Shown piece by piece: positions 13,501 to 36,951 of a DNA stretch of 37,983 nt; within the stretch, counting starts at the first letter, position 1, and the number at the start of each line of letters is the position of its first letter. The DNA lies in NCBI GenBank assembly GCA_902780565.1, contig CACZGD010000069.1, positions 1 to 37,983 on the forward strand, written 5' to 3'. This DNA is from Oscillospiraceae bacterium (GTDB lineage Bacteria > Bacillota > Clostridia > Oscillospirales > Acutalibacteraceae). The notes under the pieces are model-generated. The model saw only the letters and a list, made by a program, of their open reading frames with translations. It had not been told where the DNA came from and searched no databases. Made by a program: the position numbers and the translations under genes.

Positions 13501-13569
13501 AATTGTGTATGTGTGCAAGCGCCCCTCGGCGCGTCCACGACAAATAATATACCTTGGAGGTACAAGCAT

Positions 13570-14827
13570 ATGGACTACAGAATCGAACACGACTCGATGG
13601 GTGAAGTCAAAGTCCCCGCCGACAAATACTGGGCGGCGCAGACCGAGAGAAGCCACGAGAACTTCAAGATCGGCGTCGGCATTGAGACCATGCCCCGCGA
13701 GATCACCCACGCCTTCGGCGTGCTGAAAAAGGCCGCCGCCATCGCGAACCACGCCCTGAAGCCCGAAAAGATGACCGACGAAAAGCTTGCCGCCATTTCG
13801 CAGGCCTGCGACGAGGTCATGAGCGGAAGCCTGAACGACCACTTCCCGCTCGTGGTCTGGCAGACCGGCTCCGGCACGCAGTCCAACATGAACGCCAACG
13901 AAGTCATTGCCAACCGCGGCAACGAGATCGCCGGCAAAAAGCTGCTGCACCCCAACGACGATATCAACATGAGCCAGTCCTCCAACGATACCTTCCCGAC
14001 CGCCATCTCCATCGCGGCGGTGCTGGGCATCGAGGATAAGCTCTTCCCGGCGCTCGATAAGCTGATCGGCACCTTCCTGCGCCTTGAAAAAGAGAACGAG
14101 GGCATTGTGAAGTCCGGCCGTACCCACCTGCAGGACGCGACCCCTATCACCTTCTCGCAGGAGATCAGCGGCTGGCGCACCTCTCTGGAAAAGGACAGAA
14201 GGCTGCTCGAGATCGCCCTGCCCGAGCTCAAGGAGCTGGCGCTGGGCGGCACGGCTGTGGGCACCGGCCTCAACGCCCCCAAGGGCTTTGACGTCAAGGT
14301 TGCCGAAGCGGTTTCCGAGATCACCGGAAAGGACTTCATCACCGCGCCCAACAAGTTCCACGCCCTCACCTCCAAGGATGAGATCGTGTTCGCGCACGGC
14401 GCGCTGAAGGCGCTGGCCGCGGACCTGATGAAGATCGCGAACGACATCCGCTGGCTTGCCTCCGGTCCCCGTCGACGTGGCCGTCGGCATGGCAGCAAGC
14501 CAGGGCAACTTCGAGCTGAACGTCTTTATGCCCGTGCTCATCTATAATTTCACCCAGTCCGTGCGCCTGCTGAGCGAGGCCATGGTCTCCTTCAACGACA
14601 ACTGCGTGGTCGGGATCGTCGCCGACAGGGAAAAGATGCACGATAACCTCCATCACTCCCTGATGCTGGTCACGGCGCTCAACCCCTACATCGGCTATGA
14701 AAACGCCGCCAAGACCGCGAAAAAGGCCTTCAAGGACAACATCTCCCTGAAAGAGGCCTGCGTGGAGCTCGGCTTCCTGACCGCGGAGCGCTTTGACGAG
14801 GTCTTCCATCCGGAGCAGATGGTTTAA
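13570..14827 (+). pseudogene. fumC: Class II fumarate hydratase (fumC) with internal out-of-frame deletion
   Basis: The start (13570, after GGAGG) opens a clear fumarase: QTGSGTQSNMNANEVIANR, MSQSSNDTFPTA, SGRTHLQDATPIT. Residues 1-301 end at LASGPR; then the frame shifts, and the true continuation (DVAVGMAASQGNFELNVFM) appears in another frame from 14474 to the stop at 14827, 117 codons. Comparison with the family shows about 40 codons missing between them (roughly 119 bases, not a multiple of three). The lost part holds the signature GSSxMPxKxN loop with the catalytic serine. The reading frame from the start ends early at 14547. The gene is therefore inactive as written, or the assembly collapsed here. 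The intact total, 418 plus about 40 residues, fits the family length. It is the first gene of the fumarate-reductase operon and would make fumarate from malate. Confidence 0.9.
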
Positions 14828-14902
14828 GCCGCGCTCCCCGCGGCTGACATCCCGTGCATCCGTCGCCGCGGGCGACCGATGCTTTCCCGCCGCGAAAGCG
14901 GC
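14828..14902 (+). other. Three consecutive intercistronic hairpins
   Basis: Between fumC and hdrB, the widest gap of the operon (101 bases), three small stems follow each other: GCCGCG with CGCGGC (14828-14844), GTCGC with GCGAC (14862-14876), and GCCGC-GAAA-GCGGC (14889-14902) with a GNRA-type tetraloop. No T-run follows, so they are not a normal terminator. They could be RNA-processing or stability elements separating fumC from the hdr genes on the message. Confidence 0.5.
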
Positions 14903-14928: not shown

Positions 14929-15711
14929 ATGGAGTTTTTATACTATCCGGGCTGTACGCTGAAAAATAAAGCCAAGGACCTGGACCTTTACGCCCGCCGC
15001 ACGGCCGAGGCCCTCGGCGTGACGCTGACGGAGCTTCCGGAATGGCAGTGCTGCGGCGGCGTGTATCCCCTGGGGCGGGACGAGATCGCGACGAAGCTTT
15101 CAAGCGTGCGTAATCTGATCGCCGCCCGGGACGCCGGACGGGATCTTGTGACCGTGTGCGCCGCCTGTCACAACGTGGTCAAGCAAGTGAACCACGACAT
15201 GGCGACGGACGATTACATCCGCACCCGCGTGAACAACTACCTGCAGCCCGAAACGCCTTACGAGGGTGAAACGCAGGTGCTGCACCTGCTGGAGGTGCTG
15301 CGGGACAAGGTGGGCTTTGACGCGATCCGGGAAAAGGTCGTGAAGCCCCTGACCGGCAGAAAGATCGGCGCCTATTACGGCTGCCTGCTGCTGCGTCCCT
15401 CGAAGGTGCTCGCCTTCGACGACCCCGAGAACCCCACGATCATCGAGGACTTTCTCCGCGCCCTCGGCGCAGAGCCCGTGATCTACGCCCAGCGCAACGA
15501 GTGCTGCGGCGCCTATGCGGCGATCGAAAACGAAAACGTCCCCAAAAAGCGCGCGGGCGCGGTGCTCTCGAACGCGAAAGCGAACGGCGCCGAGGAGCTG
15601 GTGACGGCCTGCCCGCTGTGTATGTACAATCTGAAAAAACAGGCCGACGGCACGGGCGTCAAGGTGACGTATTTCACCGAGCTGCTCGCCGAAGCGCTGG
15701 ACATTCGGTAA
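14929..15711 (+). CDS. hdrB: Heterodisulfide reductase subunit B-like protein, two CCG domains
   Basis: This 260-residue protein has two complete cysteine-rich CCG domains: Cys9, Cys41-Cys42, Cys77, Cys80 and Cys152, Cys192-Cys193, Cys228, Cys231. In methanogen HdrB these bind two non-cubane [4Fe-4S] clusters that reduce a disulfide. All ten cysteines are kept, so clusters should form. Bacteria of this kind are not known to have the methanogen heterodisulfide, so the acceptor is either another disulfide or, as the operon suggests, the FrdAB pair. The ATG at 14929 is chosen because the family begins MEFLYYPGCT; the upstream purine-rich ribosome site is weak. hdrC follows after 10 bases. Confidence 0.9.
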   Translation: MEFLYYPGCTLKNKAKDLDLYARRTAEALGVTLTELPEWQCCGGVYPLGRDEIATKLSSVRNLIAARDAGRDLVTVCAACHNVVKQVNHDMATDDYIRTRVNNYLQPETPYEGETQVLHLLEVLRDKVGFDAIREKVVKPLTGRKIGAYYGCLLLRPSKVLAFDDPENPTIIEDFLRALGAEPVIYAQRNECCGAYAAIENENVPKKRAGAVLSNAKANGAEELVTACPLCMYNLKKQADGTGVKVTYFTELLAEALDIR

Positions 15712-15721
15712 GGAGGACGGC

Positions 15722-16108
15722 ATGGAAAACAACAATTTGCGCGAACAGATCCTTTTTACCGCGAACGCGGACCCCAAAAAGTGCATGAAGTGCGGCAAGT
15801 GCTCCGGCGCCTGCCCAAACTATGACGAGATGGAATACCATCCGCATCAGTTCGTCTCCATGGTGCAGAACGGCGATATCGAGCCGCTGCTGAAAAGCGA
15901 GTCCCTGTATCTGTGCCTGACCTGCATGGTGTGCGTGGAGCGCTGCCCCCGCAACGTGCAGCCCGCCCGCTTTATCGAAGCGGTGCGCCTTGCGAAGATC
16001 CGGCAGCAGGGCGAAAACCGCCTGACCCCGCAACAGATCCCCGCAAAGATCGAAGAAGACACGCCCCAGCAGCTGCTGGTCAGCGCCTTCCGCAAATATA
16101 CGAAGTAA
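15722..16108 (+). CDS. hdrC: Heterodisulfide reductase subunit C-like ferredoxin protein
   Basis: This 128-residue protein carries two 4Fe-4S motifs, Cys21/24/27/31 (CMKCGKCSGACP) and Cys65/68/71/75 (CLTCMVCVERCP). As in HdrC it should wire the HdrA flavin centre to the HdrB clusters. Length is slightly below archaeal HdrC (about 180 residues). AAGGAGG precedes it, it lies 10 bases after hdrB and 15 before hdrA. Confidence 0.92.
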   Translation: MENNNLREQILFTANADPKKCMKCGKCSGACPNYDEMEYHPHQFVSMVQNGDIEPLLKSESLYLCLTCMVCVERCPRNVQPARFIEAVRLAKIRQQGENRLTPQQIPAKIEEDTPQQLLVSAFRKYTK

Positions 16109-16123
16109 AGGAGGAAACTGAAC

Positions 16124-18118
16124 GTGCAAAGAATCGGCGTATTCGTATGCTGGTGCGGCTCGAACATCGCAGGCACCGTGGACGTGAAAAAGGTCGCGGA
16201 GACTCTGGGTCACGAGCCCGGCGTGGTTTTCTCCACCGACTACCAGTATATGTGCTCCCAGTCCGGTCAGGATCTGGTCAAGGATTCGATCCGGACCTAC
16301 AACCTCACGGGCGTGGTGATCTGCTCCTGCTCCCCCAGAATGCACGAAAACACCTTCCGCAAGGCGGCGGCGAGCGTGGGGCTGAACCCCTATATGGTCG
16401 AGATCGCGAACATCCGCGAGCAGGTCTCGTGGATCCACAAGGATATGGAGACCGCCACCGAAAAGGCGATCATTCTGGGCCGCGCCGCGATCGCAAAGGT
16501 CCATCTCAACGCCCCGCTGATTGCGGGCGAGACCCCCGTGACCAAGCGCGCGCTGGTCATCGGCGGCGGCATCGCGGGCATTCAGACCGCCCTGGATATC
16601 GCGGAGGCCGGCTTTGAGGTCGACATCGTGGAAAAAAGCCCCACGATCGGCGGCAAAATGGCGCAGATCGACAAGACCTTCCCCACCCTCGACTGCGCGG
16701 CCTGCATCCTGACCCCCAAAATGGTGGAGGCCAGCCAGCAGGAGAACATCAACATCTACGCCTTCTCCGAGGTGGACGAGGTGAAGGGCTTTGTGGGCAA
16801 CTTCACCGTGAAGATCCGCAGAAAGGCGCGCTACGTGAAGGAGGAGCTTTGCACCGGCTGCGGCCTGTGCACCGAAAAATGCCCCCAGAAGAAGGTCCCG
16901 GATGAATTCAACCTCGGGCTTTCCAACCGCCGCGCCATTTATATCCCCTTCGCGCAGGCGGTGCCGAAGGTCGCCACCATCGACCCGAACTACTGCACGA
17001 TGCTGAAGACCGGCAAGTGCGGCGTGTGCAGCAAGGTGTGCGGCGTGAAGGCCATCGACTACACGCAGAAGGACGAGATCGTGGAGCGCAAATACGGCGC
17101 GATCGTGGTCGCCACCGGCTTTGAGCCCATCAAGGTGGATAAATTCGAGGAGTTCGCCTACGCCCAGAGCCCGGACGTGGTCACGTCCCTGGAATACGAG
17201 CGGCTGATGAACGCGGCCGGCCCCACCGGCGGCACGCTGCTCAGACCCTCCGACAAAACGCACCCGCACACCATCGTGTTCGTGCAGTGCGTGGGCTCCC
17301 GCTGCGACGAAAAGAGCGAAAAGGGCAAGCCCTACTGCTCCAAGGTCTGCTGCATGTATACCGCGAAGCACGCGATGCTGACGCGGGAGAAATATCCCGA
17401 TACCGAGGTCTACGTCTTCTATATCGACGTCAGGACCCCCGGCAAGAACTTCGACGAGTTCTACCGCCGCGCGGTGGAGCATTACGGCGTCCACTACGTC
17501 AAGGGCATGGTGGGCAAGGTGACGCCCGAAAACGGCAAGCTGAAGGTGCAGGCCAGCGACCTGCTGGATAACCGCCAGCTCCACATCGACGCGGACATGG
17601 TGGTGCTCGCCGCCGCCATTGAACCGGACAAATCCGCCCGCCCGCTCGCCACGATGCTGACCGCCAGCATGGACACCAACGACTTCTTCACCGAGGCGCA
17701 CCCGAAGCTGCGTCCCGTGGAAAGCCCGACCGCCGGCGTGTTCCTCTCCGGCATGTGCCAGGGCCCCAAGGACATCCCCGAAACGGTCTCACAGGCCTCC
17801 GCCTGCGCCGCCAAGGTCATCGGCCTGCTGGTCAAGGATAAGCTGGTAGGCAACCCCTGCGTGGCGCATTCGGACGAAATGATGTGCAACGGCTGCTCCC
17901 AGTGCCAGAACGTGTGCCCCTACGGCGCGATCACCTATACCGAAAAGGAATTCCGTATGCCGGACCGCACCACGGCCGTGCGCCGCGTGGCGCAGGTGAA
18001 CCCCGCCGTCTGCCAGGGCTGCGGCGCCTGCACCGTGACCTGTCCCTCCGGCGCGATGGACCTGTTCGGCTTCAGCAATAATCAGATCATGGCGGAGGTA
18101 GACGCGATATGCAAGTAA
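16124..18118 (+). CDS. hdrA: Heterodisulfide reductase subunit A, electron-bifurcating flavoprotein
   Basis: This 664-residue protein has the full HdrA layout. A Cys-rich N-terminal part (FVCWCGSNIAGTVD, CSCSPRMHE) leads to an FAD Rossmann site ALVIGGGIAGIQTA (Gly147-Gly152), and the HdrA-typical LDCAACILTPKM follows (Cys191, Cys194). An inserted 4Fe-4S site is at Cys243-Cys253 (CTGCGLCTEKCP). Two C-terminal ferredoxin motifs are near 588 (CNGCSQCQNVCP) and 630 (CQGCGACTVTCP). In known complexes its FAD splits electron pairs, sending one to ferredoxin through the low-potential branch and one to HdrBC. The start is GTG at 16124 after AAAGGAGG. Its end overlaps the MvhD-like gene by 10 bases. 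Confidence 0.95.
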   Translation: MQRIGVFVCWCGSNIAGTVDVKKVAETLGHEPGVVFSTDYQYMCSQSGQDLVKDSIRTYNLTGVVICSCSPRMHENTFRKAAASVGLNPYMVEIANIREQVSWIHKDMETATEKAIILGRAAIAKVHLNAPLIAGETPVTKRALVIGGGIAGIQTALDIAEAGFEVDIVEKSPTIGGKMAQIDKTFPTLDCAACILTPKMVEASQQENINIYAFSEVDEVKGFVGNFTVKIRRKARYVKEELCTGCGLCTEKCPQKKVPDEFNLGLSNRRAIYIPFAQAVPKVATIDPNYCTMLKTGKCGVCSKVCGVKAIDYTQKDEIVERKYGAIVVATGFEPIKVDKFEEFAYAQSPDVVTSLEYERLMNAAGPTGGTLLRPSDKTHPHTIVFVQCVGSRCDEKSEKGKPYCSKVCCMYTAKHAMLTREKYPDTEVYVFYIDVRTPGKNFDEFYRRAVEHYGVHYVKGMVGKVTPENGKLKVQASDLLDNRQLHIDADMVVLAAAIEPDKSARPLATMLTASMDTNDFFTEAHPKLRPVESPTAGVFLSGMCQGPKDIPETVSQASACAAKVIGLLVKDKLVGNPCVAHSDEMMCNGCSQCQNVCPYGAITYTEKEFRMPDRTTAVRRVAQVNPAVCQGCGACTVTCPSGAMDLFGFSNNQIMAEVDAICK

Positions 18119-18552
18119 AGAACGAAAACTGGAAGCCCCTGATCGTGGCGTTCTGCTGCAACTGGTGCTCCTACGCCGGCGCGGACCTTGCGGGCACGAA
18201 CCGCCTGAACTACCCCGCCGACGTCAAGATCATCCGGGTGCCCTGCTCCTGCCGGGTGAACCCCATGTTCATCCTGCGCGCGTTCCAACGCGGCGCGGAC
18301 GGCGTGATCGTGTGCGGCTGCCACCCCGGCGACTGCCACTACACCTCCGGCAACTACTACGCCAGAAGAAGAATGACCCTGCTGTTCTCGATGCTCGACT
18401 ACCTCGGCATCGAAAAGGGACGCACCCGCGTGGAGTGGGTCTCCGCCGCGGAGGGCCAGAAATTCGCCGAGACCATGAATTCCTTTGTGGAGACGATCAC
18501 GTCCCTCGGCGAGAATAAGAGATTGGAGGACCTGAGATGCAAGACAGAATGA
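18109..18552 (+). CDS. flxD: MvhD/FlxD-like iron-sulfur protein
   Basis: This 147-residue protein belongs to the MvhD family, whose [2Fe-2S] cluster links an electron-input module to HdrA. Conserved cysteines are Cys16-Cys17, Cys20 (FCCNWC), Cys46, Cys48 (PCSCRV) and Cys69, Cys71, Cys76 (VCGCHPGDCHY). The RVPCSCRVNP and CGCHPGDCHY stretches are family hallmarks. In methanogens the partner is a hydrogenase; no hydrogenase lies here, and the neighbours instead match FlxA, FlxB and FlxC, so this is best called FlxD. It overlaps hdrA by 10 bases and the next gene by 16. Confidence 0.9.
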   Translation: MQVKNENWKPLIVAFCCNWCSYAGADLAGTNRLNYPADVKIIRVPCSCRVNPMFILRAFQRGADGVIVCGCHPGDCHYTSGNYYARRRMTLLFSMLDYLGIEKGRTRVEWVSAAEGQKFAETMNSFVETITSLGENKRLEDLRCKTE

Positions 18553-19520
18553 TCGCGCGCGCGAAGGAACTCCTCGCGGACGGCACCGTCGACCGCGTGA
18601 TGGGCTGGAAGAAGGGCGAATTCCTGTATGACGCGACCCCCGCGGTGTTCTATTCCGCCGAGGAGCTGGACGCGGGCTTCGTGATGAACGCCTTCACCGC
18701 CGCAAACGTCTCGAAATACCTGATCAAAGAAACCAAAAAGGAAGGAAAAATCCTTGCCTTCCTGAAGCCCTGCGACTCCTTCTCCTTCCGTCAGCTCATG
18801 AACGAGCACCGCGTGGACCGCGATAAGGTCTATATCGTGGGCATCCCCTCCTGGGGCAAGGCGGACATGGAAAAGATCCGTCAGAAGGGAATCACCGGCA
18901 TCACCTCCATCGAGGAGCGCGAGGGCGACTTCGTGGTGAACACGATCCTGCGCGAGACGCACGTCATAAAAAAGTACGACGTGTATCTTGAAAAGTGCAA
19001 AAACTGCAAATCCAAGGAGATCGTGGTCTATGACGAGCTGCTGGACGGCGAGAACGGCGCGGCGGTGACGAACAGCCGCTTCGACGAGGTGGCAAAGCTG
19101 GAGGCGATGACCCCGGACGAGCGCTTCGCCTTCTGGCAGAACGAGCTGTCCCGCTGCATCCGCTGCAACGCCTGCCGCAACGTCTGCCCCGCCTGCACCT
19201 GCGAAAAATGCGTGTTCGACAACCCCAAATCCGGGCTCGAGAACAAGGCGGCGGCGACCTCCTTCGAGGAGAATATGTTCCACATCATCCGCGCCTTCCA
19301 CGTGGCGGGCCGCTGCACGGACTGCGGCGAATGCTCCCGCGTGTGCCCGCAGCACATTCCGCTGCACCTGCTGAACCGCAAGTTCATCAAGGATATGAAC
19401 GAGCTGTACGGCGACTTCCAGGCCGGGGAAGCGGAGCAGCAGCGTCACCCCGTGACGAGCTACCGGACCGACGACGCCGAGCCCGGCGTGATCTATACGA
19501 GAGGAGGGACCGGCAAATGA
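18537..19520 (+). CDS. flxB: FlxB-like dicluster 4Fe-4S protein
   Basis: This 327-residue protein has an N-terminal alpha/beta part with conserved LKPCDSFSFRQL, a CKNCKS pair (Cys154, Cys157), then two 4Fe-4S motifs, Cys207/210/213/217 with extra Cys220/222/225, and Cys260/263/266/270. It resembles the FlxB and hydrogenase/formate-dehydrogenase beta-type subunits that pass electrons from the NADH flavoprotein towards HdrA. Its start overlaps flxD by 16 bases and it ends in an ATGA overlap with the next gene. The name rests on operon order and on the family, not on a search. Confidence 0.78.
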   Translation: MQDRMIARAKELLADGTVDRVMGWKKGEFLYDATPAVFYSAEELDAGFVMNAFTAANVSKYLIKETKKEGKILAFLKPCDSFSFRQLMNEHRVDRDKVYIVGIPSWGKADMEKIRQKGITGITSIEEREGDFVVNTILRETHVIKKYDVYLEKCKNCKSKEIVVYDELLDGENGAAVTNSRFDEVAKLEAMTPDERFAFWQNELSRCIRCNACRNVCPACTCEKCVFDNPKSGLENKAAATSFEENMFHIIRAFHVAGRCTDCGECSRVCPQHIPLHLLNRKFIKDMNELYGDFQAGEAEQQRHPVTSYRTDDAEPGVIYTRGGTGK

Positions 19521-20542
19521 AGCGCATCGCACTGACTTCCCTGGACGCGCTGCTTGCCCGCATCGCCGAAACGCAGGCGCTTTACGTCCCCGTGGACGCC
19601 AAAGGCGGCGCGCGGTTCGAGCAGTGGGAGGCCGGCAAGGTCCTGTCCGACGCCACGAACACCGCCCGCAGCGCGAAGGACTTTTTCTTCCCCCAGACCG
19701 AAAGCCTGTATGACGTGAAGATGACCGGCAAAAAGCTCGAGATCGTGGACACGCGGGAGGACGGCGAGGACTTTGTGATCTTCGGCGCCCGCGCCTGCGA
19801 CGTGAGAAGCTTTTCGATCCTGGATTCCGTGTTCCTTGCGGACCCCGTGGATACCTATTACAAGAGCCGCCGCGACCGCGCCACGGTCGTGTCCCTTGCC
19901 TGCACGAAGCCGGAGGAGACCTGCTTCTGCCAGGCGTTCGGCATTGACGCCGCCGCCCCCGAGGGGGACGTTGCCGCCTGGAAGGAGGAGGGCTACCTCT
20001 ACCTGAAGGCGCAGTCCGAAAAGGGCGAACGGCTGCTGGAAGCGCTTTCGGACCTGCTGGAGGACGCCGACGAAAAGGCGGTGGAAACGCAGCAGATGCG
20101 GACCCGCTGGTTCCTTTCCGCCCTGCCGCTGGGCAAGGTGAGCTTTGAGGGCATGAAGCAAACGGACCTGATGGATCACTTTAAAAATGAAAAGTGGAAG
20201 TCCCTGTCCGAGGCCTGCATCGGCTGCGGGACCTGCACCTTCGTCTGCCCCACCTGCCAGTGCTACGACGTGCGGGAATTCGACGACGGCAAAAAGGTCC
20301 GCAAGTTCCGCTGCTGGGACTCCTGTATGTATTCCGACTTCACCCTGATGGCGCACGGCAATTCCAGAAACAGCCAGCTCGAGCGCTTCCGCCAGCGCTT
20401 CATGCACAAGCTGGTGTATCACCCCAACAATCACGACGGCGAGTTCGGGTGCGTGGGCTGCGGGCGCTGCCTGCAGAAATGCCCCATCGGCATGAACATC
20501 GTGAAGGTAGAAAAAGCATTGGAGGCGCCGCATGAAGAATGA
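19517..20542 (+). CDS. flxC: FlxC-like 4Fe-4S protein, anaerobic sulfite reductase A/hydrogenase beta type
   Basis: The 341-residue product starts at the ATG of an ATGA overlap with flxB. Its N-terminal half (FVIFGARACDVRSFSILDS, TVVSLACTKP) and C-terminal half (CIGCGTCTFVCPTCQC, then RCWDSCMYSDFTLMAHG and RFMHKLVYHPNN, then CVGCGRCLQKCPIGM) are characteristic of the AsrA/HydB-type family. Two 4Fe-4S clusters are expected at Cys234/237/240/244 and Cys312/315/318/322. It should sit between FlxA and FlxB in electron flow from NADH. It overlaps the next gene by 11 bases. Confidence 0.82.
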   Translation: MKRIALTSLDALLARIAETQALYVPVDAKGGARFEQWEAGKVLSDATNTARSAKDFFFPQTESLYDVKMTGKKLEIVDTREDGEDFVIFGARACDVRSFSILDSVFLADPVDTYYKSRRDRATVVSLACTKPEETCFCQAFGIDAAAPEGDVAAWKEEGYLYLKAQSEKGERLLEALSDLLEDADEKAVETQQMRTRWFLSALPLGKVSFEGMKQTDLMDHFKNEKWKSLSEACIGCGTCTFVCPTCQCYDVREFDDGKKVRKFRCWDSCMYSDFTLMAHGNSRNSQLERFRQRFMHKLVYHPNNHDGEFGCVGCGRCLQKCPIGMNIVKVEKALEAPHEE

Positions 20543-21359
20543 CGTTTTAATGCCCCTTGTCGGCGTTGTGACCGACATCCGGCAGGATACCCCCGACGTG
20601 AAGACCTTCCGCGTCAACGCCCCCGGCGGCGGCAAGGTCTTCGAGCACATCCCCGGCCAGTGCGCCATGCTGTCCGTTCCCGGCGCGGGCGAGGGCATGT
20701 TTTCCATCACCTCCTCCCCCACGAACAAGGCGTTCATGGAGTTTTCCATCAAAAAATGCGGCTGCCTGACAAGCTGGCTCCACCAGATGGAGGTCGGGCA
20801 GGAGATCGGCATCCGCGGGCCCTACGGCAACGGCTTCCCGGTGGATACCGCGTTCAAGGGCAAGGATATGCTCTTCATCGCGGGCGGCATCGGCCTTGCG
20901 CCCCTGCGCAGCGTGATCAACTACTGCCGCGACAAGCGCGCCGACTACGGCGAGATCGACATCGTGTACGGCGCGAGAAGCATGGACGACCTTGTGGACT
21001 ACAGGGAGATCATTGACGAATGGATGGCGGACGAGGGCATTCACGTCCACCTGACCATCGACCGCCCGCAGGAGGGCTGGGACGGCCACGTCGGCTTCGT
21101 GCCGAACTACGTGAAGGAGCTGGGCTTCGACACGAACAAGACCGCCATCATCTGCGGACCGCCCATCATGATCAAATTTACCCTTGCGGGGCTGACAGAG
21201 CTCGGCTTTGACAAAACGCAGGTCTACACCACCATGGAGCTGCGCATGAAATGCGGCGTCGGCAAGTGCGGCCGCTGCAACATCGGCGACAAATACGTCT
21301 GCAAGGACGGCCCCGTGTTCCGCTGTGATCAGCTCGATCACATGCCGGACGAATACTGA
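20532..21359 (+). CDS. flxA: FlxA-like FAD/NAD(P)H oxidoreductase, AsrB/FNR family
   Basis: This 275-residue flavoprotein is the likely electron entry point. An FAD-binding barrel (MFSITSSPTNK near 56-66) is followed by an NAD(P) domain with the GGIGLAP loop (118-124) and the family end CGP (208-210). A [2Fe-2S] site lies at the C-terminus (Cys241, Cys246, Cys249, Cys257). FlxA proteins oxidise NADH and feed electrons via FlxBCD to HdrA. Whether NADH or NADPH is used cannot be told by eye. frdB follows 15 bases later with its own GGAGG. Confidence 0.88.
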   Translation: MKNDVLMPLVGVVTDIRQDTPDVKTFRVNAPGGGKVFEHIPGQCAMLSVPGAGEGMFSITSSPTNKAFMEFSIKKCGCLTSWLHQMEVGQEIGIRGPYGNGFPVDTAFKGKDMLFIAGGIGLAPLRSVINYCRDKRADYGEIDIVYGARSMDDLVDYREIIDEWMADEGIHVHLTIDRPQEGWDGHVGFVPNYVKELGFDTNKTAIICGPPIMIKFTLAGLTELGFDKTQVYTTMELRMKCGVGKCGRCNIGDKYVCKDGPVFRCDQLDHMPDEY

Positions 21360-21374
21360 GTTGGAGGAGTTTTT

Positions 21375-22052
21375 ATGAACGAGAATTTCGTGAGTATTTA
21401 TCTGTTCGGCAAAAAATACGACGTGCCGGGCAACCTGACCATCATGGGCGCGATGGAATACGCGGGCTATCAGCTCAAGCGCGGCTGCGGCTGCCGGAAC
21501 GGCTTCTGCGGCGCGTGCGCGACCATCTACCGCGTGAAGGGCGACCGGGAGCTGAAGGTCTGCCTCGCCTGCCAGACGAAGGTGGAAAACGATATGTATA
21601 TCGCCACGCTCCCCTTCTTCCCGCTCGTCAAGGCGGTCTACGATATCAATAAGATCCCGGTCAACGAGCAGGTCATGATGCAGCTCTATCCCGAGATCTA
21701 TGCGTGCGTCGGCTGCAACGCCTGCACCAAGGCCTGCACGCAGGGCCTGAACGTGATGCAGTATATCGCCTACGCCCAGCGCGGCGAGTTCGAGAAATGC
21801 GCCGAGGAGAGCTTTGACTGCGTCATGTGCGGCGTATGCTCCTCCCGCTGCCCCGCCGGCATCTCCCATCCGCAGGTGGCGCTCCTGGCCAGACGCATCA
21901 ACGGCAAATACCTCGCCCCCGCCTGCGGCCACCTGGAGGACCGCGTGAAGGAGATCGAGAACGGGACCTACGAGGACCTGCTGCACGATCTGATGGGCAA
22001 GCCCGTCAGCGAGCTCAAAGAGCTTTATAACAACCGTGAGATCGAGAAATAA
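21375..22052 (+). CDS. frdB: Fumarate reductase iron-sulfur subunit, soluble variant
   Basis: This 225-residue protein begins with a plant-type [2Fe-2S] domain (Cys40, Cys45, Cys48, Cys63; GFCGACA) as in FrdB/SdhB, then two four-cysteine motifs, Cys111/114/117/121 and Cys149/152/155/159. Ordinary FrdB has one 4Fe-4S and one 3Fe-4S cluster, the latter next to the quinone. Here the last site has all four cysteines, so a 4Fe-4S is expected. No anchor subunit (FrdC/FrdD) is encoded nearby. The protein therefore looks adapted to take electrons from a soluble partner such as HdrBC rather than from menaquinol. It lies 14 bases before frdA. Confidence 0.88.
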   Translation: MNENFVSIYLFGKKYDVPGNLTIMGAMEYAGYQLKRGCGCRNGFCGACATIYRVKGDRELKVCLACQTKVENDMYIATLPFFPLVKAVYDINKIPVNEQVMMQLYPEIYACVGCNACTKACTQGLNVMQYIAYAQRGEFEKCAEESFDCVMCGVCSSRCPAGISHPQVALLARRINGKYLAPACGHLEDRVKEIENGTYEDLLHDLMGKPVSELKELYNNREIEK

Positions 22053-22066
22053 GGAGGCGGGACAAG

Positions 22067-23680
22067 ATGTATAACAAAGAAATGCTGGAATCCATGGCAA
22101 AGGTGGCGGCGAACCGCGCCGCGAACACCGACTTTGAACCCCGCCGCATGACCGCAGAGGAAAAAGAGACCCTGCTTGCGACCTACCACCCCGACTACAA
22201 GGAGCACGAGTTCCGCATCCTTTCCGTCGGTCCCAACAAAGGCGGCAAGGTGCCGACCGAGCTGTCGGCGCTCCTGCAGGCGCATTCCCGCATCCGGGAC
22301 GTAAAGCTGGACCTGAACGACCCCGCCTACGACGTGGACGTGCTGATCATCGGCGGCGGCGGCGCAGGCGCGGCGGCCGCGATCGAGGCGAACGAGGCGG
22401 GCGCAAACGTGCTGGTCGTGACGAAGCTGCGCATGGGCGACGCGAACACCATGATGGCGGAGGGCGGTATTCAGGCCGCCGACAAGCCGAACGACTCCCC
22501 CGCGATCCACTACGTGGACGCGTTCGGCGGCGGTCACTTCGCGGCGATCCCGGAGCTGCTGTATAAGCTCGTCAACGAGGCCCCCGGCGCGATCAAGTGG
22601 CTTTCCGACCTCGGCGTGGAGTTCGACAAAACGCCGGACGGCACCATGGTCACGACCCACGGCGGCGGCACCTCCCGCAAGCGTATGCACGCGGCGAAGG
22701 ACTACTCCGGCGCGGAGATCATGCGCACCCTGCGCGACGAGGTCCTGAACCGTCAGATCCCCGTGGCGGATTTCACCGCCGCCATTGAGCTCATCAAGGA
22801 CGAAAACGGCAGAGCCTCGGGCGCCGTGCTGATGAATATGGAAACCGGGGAGCTGCTGGTCGCGAAGGCGAAGACCGTGATCATCGCCACCGGCGGCGCG
22901 GGCCGCCTGCACTATCAGGGCTTCCCGACCTCCAACCACTACGGCGCGACCGCCGACGGCCTGATCCTCGGCTACCGCGCGGGCGCGGAGCTGCTGTATG
23001 CCGACACGCTGCAGTACCATCCCACCGGCGCCGCCTATCCGGAGCAGATCTTCGGCGCGCTGGTGACCGAAAAGGTCCGCTCCCTCGGCGCGAAGCTCGT
23101 GAACGTCAACGGCGAGGTCTTCATGCATCCGCTGGAGACGCGCGACGTGTCCGCCGCTTCCATCATCCGGGAGTGCTCAGACCGCGGCAACGGCGTGCAC
23201 ACCGACGACGGCGTGGGCGTGTGGCTCGATACCCCCATGATCGAACGAAAGGGGGGCGAGGGCACCATCGAAAAGCGCATCCCCGCCATGCTCAGAATGT
23301 TCGCGAAATACGGCATCGATATCCGCAAGGAGCCCATCCTCGTCTACCCGACGCTCCACTACCAGAACGGCGGCCTGAAGATCCGCGCGGACGGACAGAC
23401 CAACGTGGAAAATCTGTACGTCGCGGGCGAAGCCGTCGGCGGCATCCACGGCAGAAACCGCCTGATGGGCAATTCCCTGCTCGATATCATCGTCTTCGGC
23501 AGAAACGCGGGCGTGAACGCCGCGGCAAAGGCGAAGGAGACTACGGTCGGCGCGCTGAACCTCGACCATGTGGCAGCCTTCGAGAAGGAGCTGGCGGACG
23601 CCGGGATCGAGACCGACCTCGTCTCCCCGAAGCTTCTGCCCACCTACACACACGGAAACCCCAAGTTTGAGGCAAAATAA
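22067..23680 (+). CDS. frdA: Fumarate reductase flavoprotein subunit, no covalent FAD histidine
   Basis: This 537-residue flavoprotein matches FrdA/SdhA. The FAD Rossmann motif is at 93-101 (LIIGGGGAG), after an unusual N-terminal extension of about 85 residues. Catalytic positions are all present: His318 (HPTG), Arg338 (TEKVR, proton-donor position), His431 (LHYQNGG) and Arg465 (NRLMGNS). The histidine that normally binds FAD covalently (SHT..A.GG) is Asn127 here (GDANTMMAEGG). In E. coli FrdA, replacing this His leaves fumarate reduction but abolishes succinate oxidation, so a one-way reductase is expected. Substrate is inferred as fumarate; another enoate is possible. There is no signal peptide, so it is cytosolic. 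Confidence 0.9.
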   Translation: MYNKEMLESMAKVAANRAANTDFEPRRMTAEEKETLLATYHPDYKEHEFRILSVGPNKGGKVPTELSALLQAHSRIRDVKLDLNDPAYDVDVLIIGGGGAGAAAAIEANEAGANVLVVTKLRMGDANTMMAEGGIQAADKPNDSPAIHYVDAFGGGHFAAIPELLYKLVNEAPGAIKWLSDLGVEFDKTPDGTMVTTHGGGTSRKRMHAAKDYSGAEIMRTLRDEVLNRQIPVADFTAAIELIKDENGRASGAVLMNMETGELLVAKAKTVIIATGGAGRLHYQGFPTSNHYGATADGLILGYRAGAELLYADTLQYHPTGAAYPEQIFGALVTEKVRSLGAKLVNVNGEVFMHPLETRDVSAASIIRECSDRGNGVHTDDGVGVWLDTPMIERKGGEGTIEKRIPAMLRMFAKYGIDIRKEPILVYPTLHYQNGGLKIRADGQTNVENLYVAGEAVGGIHGRNRLMGNSLLDIIVFGRNAGVNAAAKAKETTVGALNLDHVAAFEKELADAGIETDLVSPKLLPTYTHGNPKFEAK

Positions 23681-23689
23681 GGAGACATC

Positions 23690-24946
23690 ATGAACGTATC
23701 CATTGCGATCAACATTCAGGCTATCACATTCCTGACCTTTTCCGCCTTTGCCATCGCGGCGCTGGGGTATCTGCTCGGCAAGATCACGATCAAGGGCGTG
23801 AACCTCGGCACGGCGGGCGTGTTTATCCTCGCGCTCGTTTACGGCTGTTTCCTGTATTCCAGACTCGGCGAGCAGCTCATGCTGGGCGAGCAGACCTATG
23901 TTTCAAACGCCTTGAAAATCGTGGAGAACATCGGGCTCGTGCTGTTCGTCACGTCCGTCGGCTTCATCGCGGGGCCGAGCTTCTTCAAGAATCTGAAGGC
24001 AAACTTCAAATCCTACGCCCTGCTGGGCGTGATCATCATCGGCTCCGCCGTGGCGGTCACGCTGGCGATCTACTACATCGGCAGAGGCAGCTCCGGCATC
24101 ACGCTGGAAAACGGCGGGACGTCCGCCGAGGGCTTCAAGAGCATGCTGGTCGGCATTCTGTCCGGCGCGCTGACCTCCACCCCCTCCTTCTCCGCCGCCA
24201 AGGAAGCGGTCGCGGAGCTGGCCGCGGGCAACGAGGCGCTCGCGGTGGAATACGAGAACCTTGTCGCGGTCGGTCATGGCATCGCCTATCTCTTCGGCGT
24301 GATCGGCGTGGTGCTGTTCGTGCAGCTCACGCCCCGGATCGTCAAGGCGAATATGGAGGTCGAGCGGCAGAAGATCTATCACCATCCCGGTGAAAAGAAG
24401 CAGAAGGAGACCAAGCTCATCGAGCTGGACGAATTCGGCATCTGCGACTTTTCCATCGCCGCGATCTTCGGCATCGCGATCGGCTCCATCAACCTCTACG
24501 GCTTCTCGCTGACCACCACCGGCGGCTGCCTGCTGGTCGCCCTGATCCTCGGGCATTTCAACCACATCGGGCGCATCAACCTGCTGCCGCACGAATCGAC
24601 CCTCAAGGTCTTCCGGGAGCTCGGCCTCATGCTGTTCCTGATCGGCGCGGGCGTCGCGGGCGGCTCCAGCTTCGTGAAGTATTTCAACGGCATCTACTTC
24701 GTCTACGGCGTGCTGATGACGATCGTGCCGATGTTCGTCGGCTTCTTCTTCGCAAAATACGTACTCAAAATGCCCCTGCTCAATAACCTGGGCTCCATCA
24801 CCGGCGGCATGACCTCCACCCCCGCGCTCGGCACGCTGATCTCCACGGCCGGGACCGAGGACGTGGCGTCCGCCTACGCCGCCACCTACCCGATCGCCCT
24901 GATCGCGATCGTGCTGGCAAGCAAGCTGATCATCAGCCTTTGCTGA
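23690..24946 (+). CDS. AspT/SucE-type (AAEx family) dicarboxylate transporter, compact form
   Basis: This 418-residue membrane protein has two homologous halves of about five helices each, with the repeated family motif GALTSTPSFSAA (about residue 160) and GGMTSTPALGTL (about 370). It belongs to the aspartate:alanine exchanger family, which includes aspartate/alanine antiporters and the succinate exporter SucE. The linker between the halves (about residues 225-245, charged) is short: the paired TrkA_C domains of most members are missing, which explains the length below the usual 530 or more. Nine bases after frdA and last in the operon, it probably exports succinate or exchanges it for fumarate or aspartate. 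Direction is inferred. Confidence 0.85.
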   Translation: MNVSIAINIQAITFLTFSAFAIAALGYLLGKITIKGVNLGTAGVFILALVYGCFLYSRLGEQLMLGEQTYVSNALKIVENIGLVLFVTSVGFIAGPSFFKNLKANFKSYALLGVIIIGSAVAVTLAIYYIGRGSSGITLENGGTSAEGFKSMLVGILSGALTSTPSFSAAKEAVAELAAGNEALAVEYENLVAVGHGIAYLFGVIGVVLFVQLTPRIVKANMEVERQKIYHHPGEKKQKETKLIELDEFGICDFSIAAIFGIAIGSINLYGFSLTTTGGCLLVALILGHFNHIGRINLLPHESTLKVFRELGLMLFLIGAGVAGGSSFVKYFNGIYFVYGVLMTIVPMFVGFFFAKYVLKMPLLNNLGSITGGMTSTPALGTLISTAGTEDVASAYAATYPIALIAIVLASKLIISLC

Positions 24947-34719: not shown

Positions 34720-36951
34720 TTACGCGGCGAGCCAGTTTTTGCGGTCCTCCAGCCCCACGGCGGCGCGGAGAATGAGTCTCGCGTCGGAGGCGGTGATCTT
34801 CCCGTCGCGGTCCGCGTCGGCGATGTCGGTCGTCTCGTCGTCAAAGGTCTCCAGCCCCACGGCGGCGCGAAGGGCAAGTCTGGCGTCCGAGGCAGTCACC
34901 TTGCCATCGCGGTCCGCGTCGCCGATGGTCTCTGCTGTCAAAGGGAATGAGGAAAACACAATAACAGCCCGCTGCAACGGTTGGTTTCCGGTCTCCTGCT
35001 TCACAGTTATCCACTTTTCCTGCGTATCGCCGTAATAAACCGTTTTCAGAGAATTACACCCGTCAAAAGCGTAACGTCCGATCACAGTTACTGTTTCGGG
35101 AATTGCGATCCATTCCAAAGAATTACAATAAGCAAAGGTTCCGCGTCCAATCACGGTGATCCCTCTCGGAATGACGACCTCATGAATCAAAGAGCAGCCT
35201 TCAAAGGCGGATTCCCCGATTTGTGTAAGTCCGGCCGGAAGAGTAATCCTGTTTAGTCCCGTGCAATAAGCGAACGCCTGTGAGCCGATTTCCCGAACAC
35301 TGTTCGGGAACGTGACTTCCATCAGTATCCGACATTCATAAAAAGCGCCGTTGGCAATTGTCGTGACGCTGTCCGGGATTTCGACTTCCTGCAGGAAACC
35401 CGGAAGAAATACGGTCTGGATGACGGTTTTTGACGGATTGTAAACGATATTGTCCTCCAACAGACAATCGTAATAGGTAGGGTTCTTTTCGCTCAAATTC
35501 TTTACTTTAGCCCATTTTTCTTTTGATCCGAAATAAAAAATACGCACAAGCCTGCCCTGATTCTCAAAAGCGCCTGCTCCTATTTGCGTAATCTGATCGG
35601 GAATCGTCACGTTTTTCAGGCGGGCGCACGATGTAAACGCGTATGCTCCGATCGTTTTTGTGCTTTCCGGGAGCATGACGACCTCCAGATCCGTACCGGA
35701 AAAAGCGGCGTCTCCGATTTTTGTCAAGCGATCCGGGAGATTTACGGTTTGCAGGTTCCGACATCCCGAAAAAGCATTGTTCCCGATCTCCGTTACCGTA
35801 TCCGGGAAGGTCGCCGATTCCAATTCTATGCAGTTATAAAATGTGTAATCGCCGATCTTTGTAACGCCCTCCGGAATCGAAAGATTATGCACCTTCTCTC
35901 CATTCAGAAACAAATTTTTTGCTCTGCCGAGAGGGTTGGCGGTTTCGTCCTCAAATTCAGAATCGCACCAGGAGGAAAGGTCGGAAATGTTGATCCGGTT
36001 CATCCCGTTACAGGACGAAAAAGCTTTGCTTTCGATCGTCTTTTTTCCCGATCCGAATGAGATCGTCTGCAGCCCGTTGCAGTACGAAAAAGCAGAAGTG
36101 CGAATGCAGAGTTCTCCGTCTCCGAATGAAACGGCTTGCAGCGCATAGCAATTGGAAAAAGCAAACCAATCAATTTCAGCCATACTATCCGGCAATTCGA
36201 CGGAAGTCAGGTTTGTGCAGTACTCGAATGCTTCCCGCCCGATTGTTGTTACTCCTTCAGGGATGGAAATCGATGTCAACCCGTTTTCACCTTGAAAAGC
36301 AGAAGGGGAAATCCCGACAGTTCCGGGTTTTATCTCGATGTGGGAATCGGACGGAACATTCCCTTTGTATTCATATGCAACACGTCCTGCATATACAACG
36401 CCTTCCGGTTGGTTATTATACCACAACGTCCCATTCAATGCATACTTTCCGATGTATGATACACTGTCCGGAATGCTGATGAAAGGCAATTGGCAGCAAC
36501 CGTAAAACGCGTATTCGTCTATTCGTTCCAATCCTTCCGGGAGGGATAATTCTGCAAGTCGAATACAACTATCAAATGCGGAATACCGGATCGCGTAAAG
36601 ACTCTCCGGCAGAAAAACGGAAGCAAGCTGCGCACATTTTATAAATGCATTTGCTCCGATTTTTGTAACGCCTTCCTGAATCGTCACCGCAGTAATTTCC
36701 TGTCTTTCAGAATGCCACGGCGCATCGGAATCAATTTGAAAATCCCTCATTTCTCCCGTGCCGCTGATGGTGAGCAGCCCCTCGTCGTCCAGCGTCCACG
36801 TGAGGTTTTTGCCGTCGCCCTCGCCGCCGCAGGTGCCGGAAGCAATGATTGTCGCGGCCCTCGCGGGCAGCGTGCGGGCAAGGAGCAGCCCCGCCGCGCA
36901 GCACATAACCAGCGCGAGGGCAAGGAGACCAAGTCGTTTGAGATGTTTCAT
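34720..36951 (-). CDS. Secreted BspA-type leucine-rich repeat protein with dockerin
   Basis: This 743-residue protein starts after AAGGAGG with a signal peptide (1-33, ending ARAAT). Next comes a GEGDGKNLTWTLDDEGLLTI segment in two parts, which is a common leader of LRR_5 proteins, then about 20 repeats of 22-23 residues of the form ITSIxIPEGVTxIGxxAFxxC (BspA/TpLRR). Two divergent gaps hold extra segments near 180-215 and 500-545. A type I dockerin closes the protein (two loops, DADRDGKVTASD and DADRDGKITASD). It probably binds surfaces or host or plant glycans and is docked onto a cohesin partner. The repeat-coding DNA is visibly lower in GC than its ends: for example 28 of 60 bases at 35041-35100 against 42 of 60 at 34321-34380 in trxB. 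A mosaic origin is likely. Confidence 0.9.
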   Translation of the reverse strand: MKHLKRLGLLALALVMCCAAGLLLARTLPARAATIIASGTCGGEGDGKNLTWTLDDEGLLTISGTGEMRDFQIDSDAPWHSERQEITAVTIQEGVTKIGANAFIKCAQLASVFLPESLYAIRYSAFDSCIRLAELSLPEGLERIDEYAFYGCCQLPFISIPDSVSYIGKYALNGTLWYNNQPEGVVYAGRVAYEYKGNVPSDSHIEIKPGTVGISPSAFQGENGLTSISIPEGVTTIGREAFEYCTNLTSVELPDSMAEIDWFAFSNCYALQAVSFGDGELCIRTSAFSYCNGLQTISFGSGKKTIESKAFSSCNGMNRINISDLSSWCDSEFEDETANPLGRAKNLFLNGEKVHNLSIPEGVTKIGDYTFYNCIELESATFPDTVTEIGNNAFSGCRNLQTVNLPDRLTKIGDAAFSGTDLEVVMLPESTKTIGAYAFTSCARLKNVTIPDQITQIGAGAFENQGRLVRIFYFGSKEKWAKVKNLSEKNPTYYDCLLEDNIVYNPSKTVIQTVFLPGFLQEVEIPDSVTTIANGAFYECRILMEVTFPNSVREIGSQAFAYCTGLNRITLPAGLTQIGESAFEGCSLIHEVVIPRGITVIGRGTFAYCNSLEWIAIPETVTVIGRYAFDGCNSLKTVYYGDTQEKWITVKQETGNQPLQRAVIVFSSFPLTAETIGDADRDGKVTASDARLALRAAVGLETFDDETTDIADADRDGKITASDARLILRAAVGLEDRKNWLAA

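Follow-up and report, generated by a model that had tools for sequence, protein, structure and literature searches.

Contig CACZGD010000069.1 of an Oscillospiraceae bacterium (assembly GCA_902780565.1; 3.29 Mb in 240 contigs, 97% complete) was analyzed over its whole length of 37,983 nucleotides, hereafter the window. On its forward strand, positions 14929–23680 hold the nine genes hdrB, hdrC, hdrA, flxD, flxB, flxC, flxA, frdB, and frdA. As judged from their sequences, these genes probably encode a soluble NADH:ferredoxin/fumarate oxidoreductase in which HdrB is a direct bridge to FrdB. The nine-gene arrangement exceeds chance, since its order recurs in every uncut window-type relative examined. 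A preliminary description of this DNA had put forward the coupling of NADH oxidation to the reduction of both fumarate and ferredoxin. This coupling is the best-supported reading of the gene order, the co-occurrence of the genes, the permuted operons, the conserved residues of HdrA, HdrB, and FrdA, and a genome with Rnf and no detectable UbiA, but it is not a previously unreported one.

Gene Content and Order of the Operon

The coordinates of the open reading frames (ORFs) placed all nine genes on a single strand with gaps of no more than 15 bases or with overlaps, as the preliminary description stated. The spacings from hdrB to frdA were, in sequence, +10, +15, −10, −16, −4, −11, +15, and +14 bases. 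All seven FlxABCD-HdrABC subunits were present and adjacent. The product of hdrB (14929–15711) contains two CCG domains with all ten cluster cysteine residues, as found by family profiles and alignment. It is followed by hdrC (15722–16108), whose product matched the profiles of HdrC-like 4Fe-4S dicluster proteins, and by a full-length hdrA (16124–18118), which was identified by family profiles, structure-sequence alignment, and a residue check. Downstream are flxD (18109–18552) of the MvhD/FlpD family (PF02662, E value 2.2e-56) and flxB (18537–19520), which encodes a 4Fe-4S protein and was assigned by family profiles and its position in the conserved order. Family profiles also identified flxC (19517–20542), encoding a 4Fe-4S protein of the sulfhydrogenase beta/AsrA kind, and flxA (20532–21359), encoding a flavin adenine dinucleotide (FAD)/NAD(P)H oxidoreductase with a DHODB-type Fe-S domain. 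The names flxB and flxC of the two middle genes are those of the preliminary description and were kept unchecked. Finally, frdB (21375–22052) encodes a protein with one [2Fe-2S] and two [4Fe-4S] motifs and without a CCG domain (family profiles and alignment), and frdA (22067–23680) encodes a fumarate reductase flavoprotein (FAD_binding_2) with an N-terminal extension of 85 residues (family profiles, alignment, and a structure model). Coordinates and family matches also bear out that frdBA directly follows flxA. No membrane-anchor gene was found among the nine genes, to which, rather than to the whole genome, the search for one was confined.

The longest ORF of hdrB begins with a GTG at 14854. 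The ATG at 14929 was adopted as its start, as a methionine was aligned there in 9 of 10 relatives and the matched piece of the tenth began four residues later; these pieces had been cut by similarity and are weak proof of the start. The numbers of promoter-like sites (4 versus 2.5 in shuffled sequences) and terminator-like sites (13 versus 13.4) were about the same as those of the shuffles.

Conservation and Co-occurrence of the Genes

The alignment of FrdA included at least 560 confirmed relatives in named genomes, of which the best 80 loci were kept; these loci are the closest relatives and have little bearing on distant ones. All nine genes were in the order of the window in 58 of the 80 loci, a contig end cut the remaining 22 upstream, and no locus had another order. 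Judged by their record titles, these loci were mostly from metagenome-assembled genomes called Clostridia or Oscillospiraceae, many of them from animal guts, and they included Ruminococcus flavefaciens FD-1. Operons of the same Clostridia type were also found in records titled Treponema and Bacteroidaceae, which may reflect misbinning, mislabeled titles, or gene transfer. Among 12 close relatives with a window-type FrdA, 10 held the nine genes in order and 2 were cut by contig ends; fumC was present in 8 of the 10. Two further loci fetched with the close relatives contained only a distant frdA-like gene and neither hdr nor flx genes. The search for this order across genomes thus rules out that it is peculiar to this genome.

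In a sample of 391 genomes of the class, FrdB was found in 54 (threshold E ≤ 1e-30) and FlxD, searched for with PF02662, in 59. Both occurred in 53 genomes, FrdB alone in 1, and FlxD alone in 6 (Fisher p 1.7e-57, uncorrected for shared descent). The two genes were 3.2–5.3 kb apart on one contig in 50 of the 53 genomes and split over two contigs in 3, in one of which both contigs ended inside flxA. The sole genome with only FrdB was 75% complete. Regarding the six with only FlxD, the contig of one ended inside flxA of a window-like operon, another had hdrA and flxD together with two ORFs, parts of which resembled HdrC, and the other four carried a different Flx-Hdr, in which three HdrA-matching ORFs were beside MetF- and MetV-like ORFs (this resemblance was judged by eye from the first residues of the ORFs, without a family search). 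In a set of 59 relatives, FlxD and an almost complete FrdA (at least 74% identical) were found in one identical group of 13 genomes; FlxD was absent from a further genome (69% complete), in which a contig end carried a 125-residue piece of FrdA. The hdrBCA-flxDBCA-frdBA set is not present throughout the genus. Loci L232–L235 contained a Flx-Hdr with three HdrA-matching ORFs, beside ORFs that by eye resembled MetF/MetV and formate-tetrahydrofolate ligase, which suggests that the Flx-Hdr module swaps its partner between lineages.

In a sample of 398 genomes from the phylum, 39 contained FrdB. From the 92 distinct genomes with FrdB in the class and phylum samples, 35 loci were fetched. The order of the window was found in 7 of them, and an order that was the same except for hdrC preceding hdrB in 1. 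In 5 loci frdBA came first (frdBA-hdrBCA-flxDBCA), in 4 the cluster was hdrC-hdrB-frdB-frdA, and in 3 several HdrA-like genes and flxD were ahead of frdBA. The four hdrCB-frdBA clusters lacked hdrA, and one of them adjoined genes for a tripartite ATP-independent periplasmic (TRAP) transporter and a fumarase-type protein; such a cluster is a possible minimal Hdr-Frd unit. In both of the two hdrCB-frdBA genomes inspected (G488 and G690), a separate Flx-HdrABC was found elsewhere. In the three arrays, frdBA lay downstream of at least two HdrA-type units (ORFs of more than 1000 amino acid residues) and flxD, which, from the sequences, would be a different HdrA architecture with a link to fumarate reduction.

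HdrA was searched for in 18 of the 19 genomes whose frdBA lacks an adjacent hdrA (G518 was left out), and it was found elsewhere in 16 of the 18. A Flx-Hdr operon was seen in all 8 of these genomes that were inspected, with flxA missing at a contig end in one. In a quick tree of FrdA made without bootstrap from 52 of 128 rows, the frdBA-first loci formed one clade (98% by the Shimodaira–Hasegawa-like approximate likelihood ratio test) and the hdrCB-frdBA loci another (99%); unlinked FrdAs were placed between the linked groups, and two unlinked long-branch rows fell inside the group of the window. A similarly quick tree of HdrA (34 rows, with two ORFs of more than 760 residues from L234 and L235 dropped) showed clades matching those of the FrdA tree. 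Repeated gain and repeated loss of linkage look alike in both trees.

Conserved Features of HdrA, HdrB, FrdB, and FrdA

HdrA aligned over its full length with the HdrA of solved structure (5odc). Its E359 and K415 correspond to E356 and K409 of Methanothermococcus thermolithotrophicus HdrA, which were proposed to mark bifurcating versus other HdrAs (PMC12054007), and were kept in 92 of 92 rows; here and below, the rows include many near relatives, so that the counts are not independent. HdrB possesses both CX31-39CCX34CXXC sites, whose ten cysteines were kept in 89 of 89 rows. The twelve cluster cysteines of FrdB, which is 225 amino acid residues long, were kept in 124–125 of 125 rows. FrdB matched TfrB only at positions 19–94 of the profile, and the HdrB and FrdB of the window separately matched the two halves of TfrB. 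In correction of the parallel with an HdrB-related thiol:fumarate reductase that the preliminary description had drawn, FrdB was rejected as a Tfr-type subunit because the C-terminal CCG domain of TfrB is absent.

In FrdA, H318, E335, R338, R359, H431, and R465 were kept in 128 of 128 rows, and T334 was kept in all but one of the 128. Roles in the active site are presumed for these residues from alignment to SdhA and from general knowledge of fumarate reductase. At the position of the FAD-binding histidine of SdhA/FrdA, FrdA has N127, which was asparagine in 127 of 128 rows and histidine in one. Because this asparagine replaces the FAD-binding histidine, FAD is probably not covalently bound. 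The best family for FrdA was TfrA (346.3 bits, below the cut-off of 718), and the polypeptide stops close to the expected beginning of the SdhA/FrdA C-terminal domain. The best fold match of the FrdA model (47 rows; mean predicted local distance difference test score [pLDDT] 77.3) was fumarate reductase of Escherichia coli, with several active-site loops below 50. Residues 1–85 (22067–22321) form an extension that is conserved in the family, is predicted to be folded (block pLDDT 81–95), and had no Pfam match; it may be a docking part.

Proposed Electron Transfer and Alternative Explanations

In the proposed complex, FlxA would accept hydride from NADH, and the electrons would pass through FlxC, FlxB, and FlxD to the flavin of HdrA, where the pairs would be split. 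One branch would reduce ferredoxin, and the other would run from HdrC through HdrB and FrdB to FrdA, where fumarate would be reduced to succinate. HdrB would thus be a direct electron bridge to FrdB and not a reductase of a free disulfide, taking the place of the C-terminal CCG domain of TfrB. Such a contact between HdrB and FrdB is supported by analogy with the halves of TfrB and with the 8-methylmenaquinol:fumarate reductase (MFR), by the lack of CCG in FrdB, and by the hdrCB-frdBA loci. The net reaction would be 2 NADH + fumarate + oxidized ferredoxin → 2 NAD+ + succinate + reduced ferredoxin (2 e−). Its computed yield at standard conditions is 48 to 33 kJ/mol fumarate, with the potentials taken as −320 mV (NADH), +30 mV (fumarate/succinate), and −420 to −500 mV (ferredoxin). 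Reduced ferredoxin would feed Rnf or a hydrogenase.

Several observations weigh against this proposal. Both disulfide-active clusters of HdrB are kept and are perhaps needless for a mere bridge. FrdB matched curated FrdB models weakly (26.8 bits, where the cut-off is 88), and the AlphaFold2 model of FrdB was poor (43 rows, mean pLDDT 52.6) and not used. Common ancestry accounts for part of the co-occurrence of FrdB and FlxD. Moreover, frdBA had no clear nearby hdr genes in 15 of the 35 fetched loci, three of them within 2.5 kb of a contig start, and two of the 18 searched genomes with unlinked frdBA (G812 and G511) were without HdrA at E ≤ 1e-30; because of these loci and genomes, FrdBA can take another donor somewhere. 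In addition, the fumarase copy in the window is broken in the assembly.

An alternative explanation is that Flx-Hdr reduces a free or protein disulfide while FrdAB uses the thiol pool or another carrier, with the genes together for co-expression only. The intact CCG sites of HdrB and the unlinked FrdBA of some lineages fit it, as does the Flx-Hdr of Desulfovibrio vulgaris, for which a coupling of NADH to both ferredoxin and the DsrC disulfide has been described (PMC10084766). The CCG family (PF02754) matched the genome only within hdrB, so no second CCG protein was found, in searches that did not extend to DsrC or other thiol partners. Because FrdB also lacks the CCG domain of TfrB, no known route leads from a thiol pool into FrdAB. 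As hdrCB is, moreover, directly beside frdBA in four loci, with Flx-HdrABC located separately in the two such genomes inspected, we consider a thiol shuttle unlikely. It is somewhat less probable that FrdAB is a stand-alone soluble fumarate reductase, supplied by NADH, ferredoxin, or a flavin without bifurcation, and that Flx-Hdr is an ordinary relay. Such an enzyme would account for the unlinked loci, including an annotated one (L193) where frdBA neighbors class I fumarase subunits and malic enzyme and whose neighbor clusters recur in 12, 9, and 8 of 28 loci compared, as well as for the two genomes lacking HdrA. The only NAD-binding Pfam matches in FrdA and FrdB, however, were FAD/NAD Rossmann families overlapping the FAD site, the two marker residues of HdrA are kept throughout, and, as an argument only, a seven-subunit relay across 350 mV would waste energy.

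Oxidation of succinate with ferredoxin and NAD+ by confurcation has a precedent in Flx-Hdr of D. vulgaris, which was reported to run in reverse in pyruvate fermentation (PMC10084766), but it would be uphill by 33–48 kJ/mol at standard conditions, and Pseudoclostridium thermosuccinogenes, which has the same gene content, ferments to succinate (PMC7282089); we regard it as very improbable here. Even less credible is a role of FrdA as an L-aspartate oxidase or as some other dicarboxylate enzyme. The active site of aspartate oxidase is largely common with that of fumarate reductase, and the nadB model gave FrdA 267.5 bits. FrdA scored higher with TfrA, although also below the cut-off, and fumarase lies upstream in 51 of the 80 named loci. 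A separate protein, encoded on contig C7, scored 430.8 bits with the nadB model, just below its cut-off of 452.75, and FrdA was rejected as the NadB of this genome.

Beyond the window, we lean slightly towards a broader proposal, in which the nine subunits form a soluble complex, with electrons passing from HdrB to FrdB, that is a widespread succinate-forming and ferredoxin-reducing enzyme of gut and rumen Clostridia, R. flavefaciens included. Such an enzyme would parallel fumarate respiration without quinones, and it may have been assembled on more than one occasion from an exchangeable Flx-Hdr module, which in acetogens is partnered with methylenetetrahydrofolate reductase. If so, many gut and rumen anaerobes would conserve the energy of fumarate reduction as ferredoxin for Rnf or H2, with neither quinones nor a membrane reductase. 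Current assumptions on how much energy succinate formation yields in the gut and rumen would change, succinate output would be tied to the H2 level, and Flx-Hdr would be a plug-in serving different electron acceptors. The question of this coupling can be tested directly in cultivated carriers, and CRISPRi is available for P. thermosuccinogenes (PMC9044749).

Neighboring Genes and Genome Context

Upstream of hdrB, fumC (13513–14827, + strand), encoding a class II fumarase, ends 101 bases ahead of hdrB and is broken into two frames, as recognized from the ORFs and by comparison with homologous loci. Approximately 40 codons are missing near 14473, with a change of frame. In all 62 loci holding both halves, a single ORF contained the two halves, separated by 40 residues. 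The break may stem from faulty assembly or be a genuine loss. Profile searches of the genome found no class I fumarase and no fumarase other than fumC; the only other Lyase_1 match was on contig C32. Downstream, a gene for an AspT/YidE/YbjL-type permease (23690–24946, + strand; PF06826, E value 4e-55) starts 9 bases past the end of frdA. Homologs were near frdA in 48 of the 80 named loci, on the opposite strand in one. From its sequence and position, this permease is a candidate C4-dicarboxylate exporter or exchanger and would export succinate.

Profile searches also identified Rnf and two FeFe hydrogenase matches in the genome. No UbiA prenyltransferase was found in it, while the control search found UbiA in 14 of 14 genomes; quinones are therefore unlikely in this organism, and a module dependent on quinones was rejected. 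Elsewhere in the window, positions 34720–36951 of the reverse strand encode a 743-residue BspA-type leucine-rich repeat protein (PF13306).

Comparison with Known Systems

Methanogen TfrB is an FrdB fused to an HdrB-like part that takes electrons from thiols. Similar to TfrAB, the operon encodes an FrdA-like flavoprotein and an HdrB-type unit next to FrdB. Different from TfrB, HdrB of the window is a separate protein and would be fed by HdrC and HdrA. In MFR (SdhABE), SdhE serves as the membrane anchor and a quinol as the donor, and neither Flx nor HdrA is known to take part, all of which differs from the operon. Similar to the operon, MFR of Wolinella has an FrdAB-like pair with a partner, SdhE, that is related to heterodisulfide reductase, and two [4Fe-4S] clusters were inferred in its SdhB (PMC2680327). 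HdrB scored 152.5 bits with the curated SdhE model, below its cut-off of 500. Neither the anchor (among the nine genes) nor the UbiA (in the genome) that would go with a quinol:fumarate reductase was found.

FlxABCD-HdrABC of D. vulgaris is the same NADH/Hdr bifurcation module, but it occurs there with alcohol dehydrogenase and the DsrC disulfide (PMC10084766), whereas that of the window occurs with frdBA and fumarase. In tubeworm symbionts, flxABCD-hdrABC is interspersed with a putative thiol:fumarate reductase and a direct complex was proposed (PMC6315080), while tfrAB did not track the expression of the remaining genes (PMC11636981). The symbiont genes differ from the operon in being also linked to korABCD, encoding 2-oxoglutarate:ferredoxin oxidoreductase, and to the reverse tricarboxylic acid cycle (PMC6315080; PMC11636981).

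The "succinate operon" of P. thermosuccinogenes, described in BMC Microbiology in 2020, consists of genes for fumarate hydratase, seven Flx-Hdr and two fumarate reductase subunits, and a possible succinate transporter (PMC7282089). The window holds the same content in one run, with its fumarase broken. The organism is different; by the gene list of that paper alone, no difference of principle was seen. Coupling to ferredoxin was proposed there too, as an assumption, with a 2019 preprint (10.20944/preprints201912.0288.v1) cited for the idea. The P. thermosuccinogenes operon was ~4-fold up when CO2 was limiting, although the rise was not significant for every subunit, and H2 in the headspace abolished succinate, which its authors found fitting. 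The effect of Na2S was opposite to that of H2, which also counts against the coupling, and the authors called the redox evidence confusing (PMC7282089). The preliminary description knew of no characterized complex of this make-up. No measured activity of such a Flx-Hdr-Frd complex was recognized in the literature searched, which agrees with that statement as far as enzymology is concerned, but the gene content and coupling had already been proposed for P. thermosuccinogenes. Thus, the operon belongs to a proposed but unproven kind and the idea itself is not new; what this study adds to it is the breadth of its occurrence, the co-occurrence of FrdB and FlxD, the occurrence of permuted and reduced clusters, the tests on conserved residues, and an argument that speaks against a thiol shuttle.

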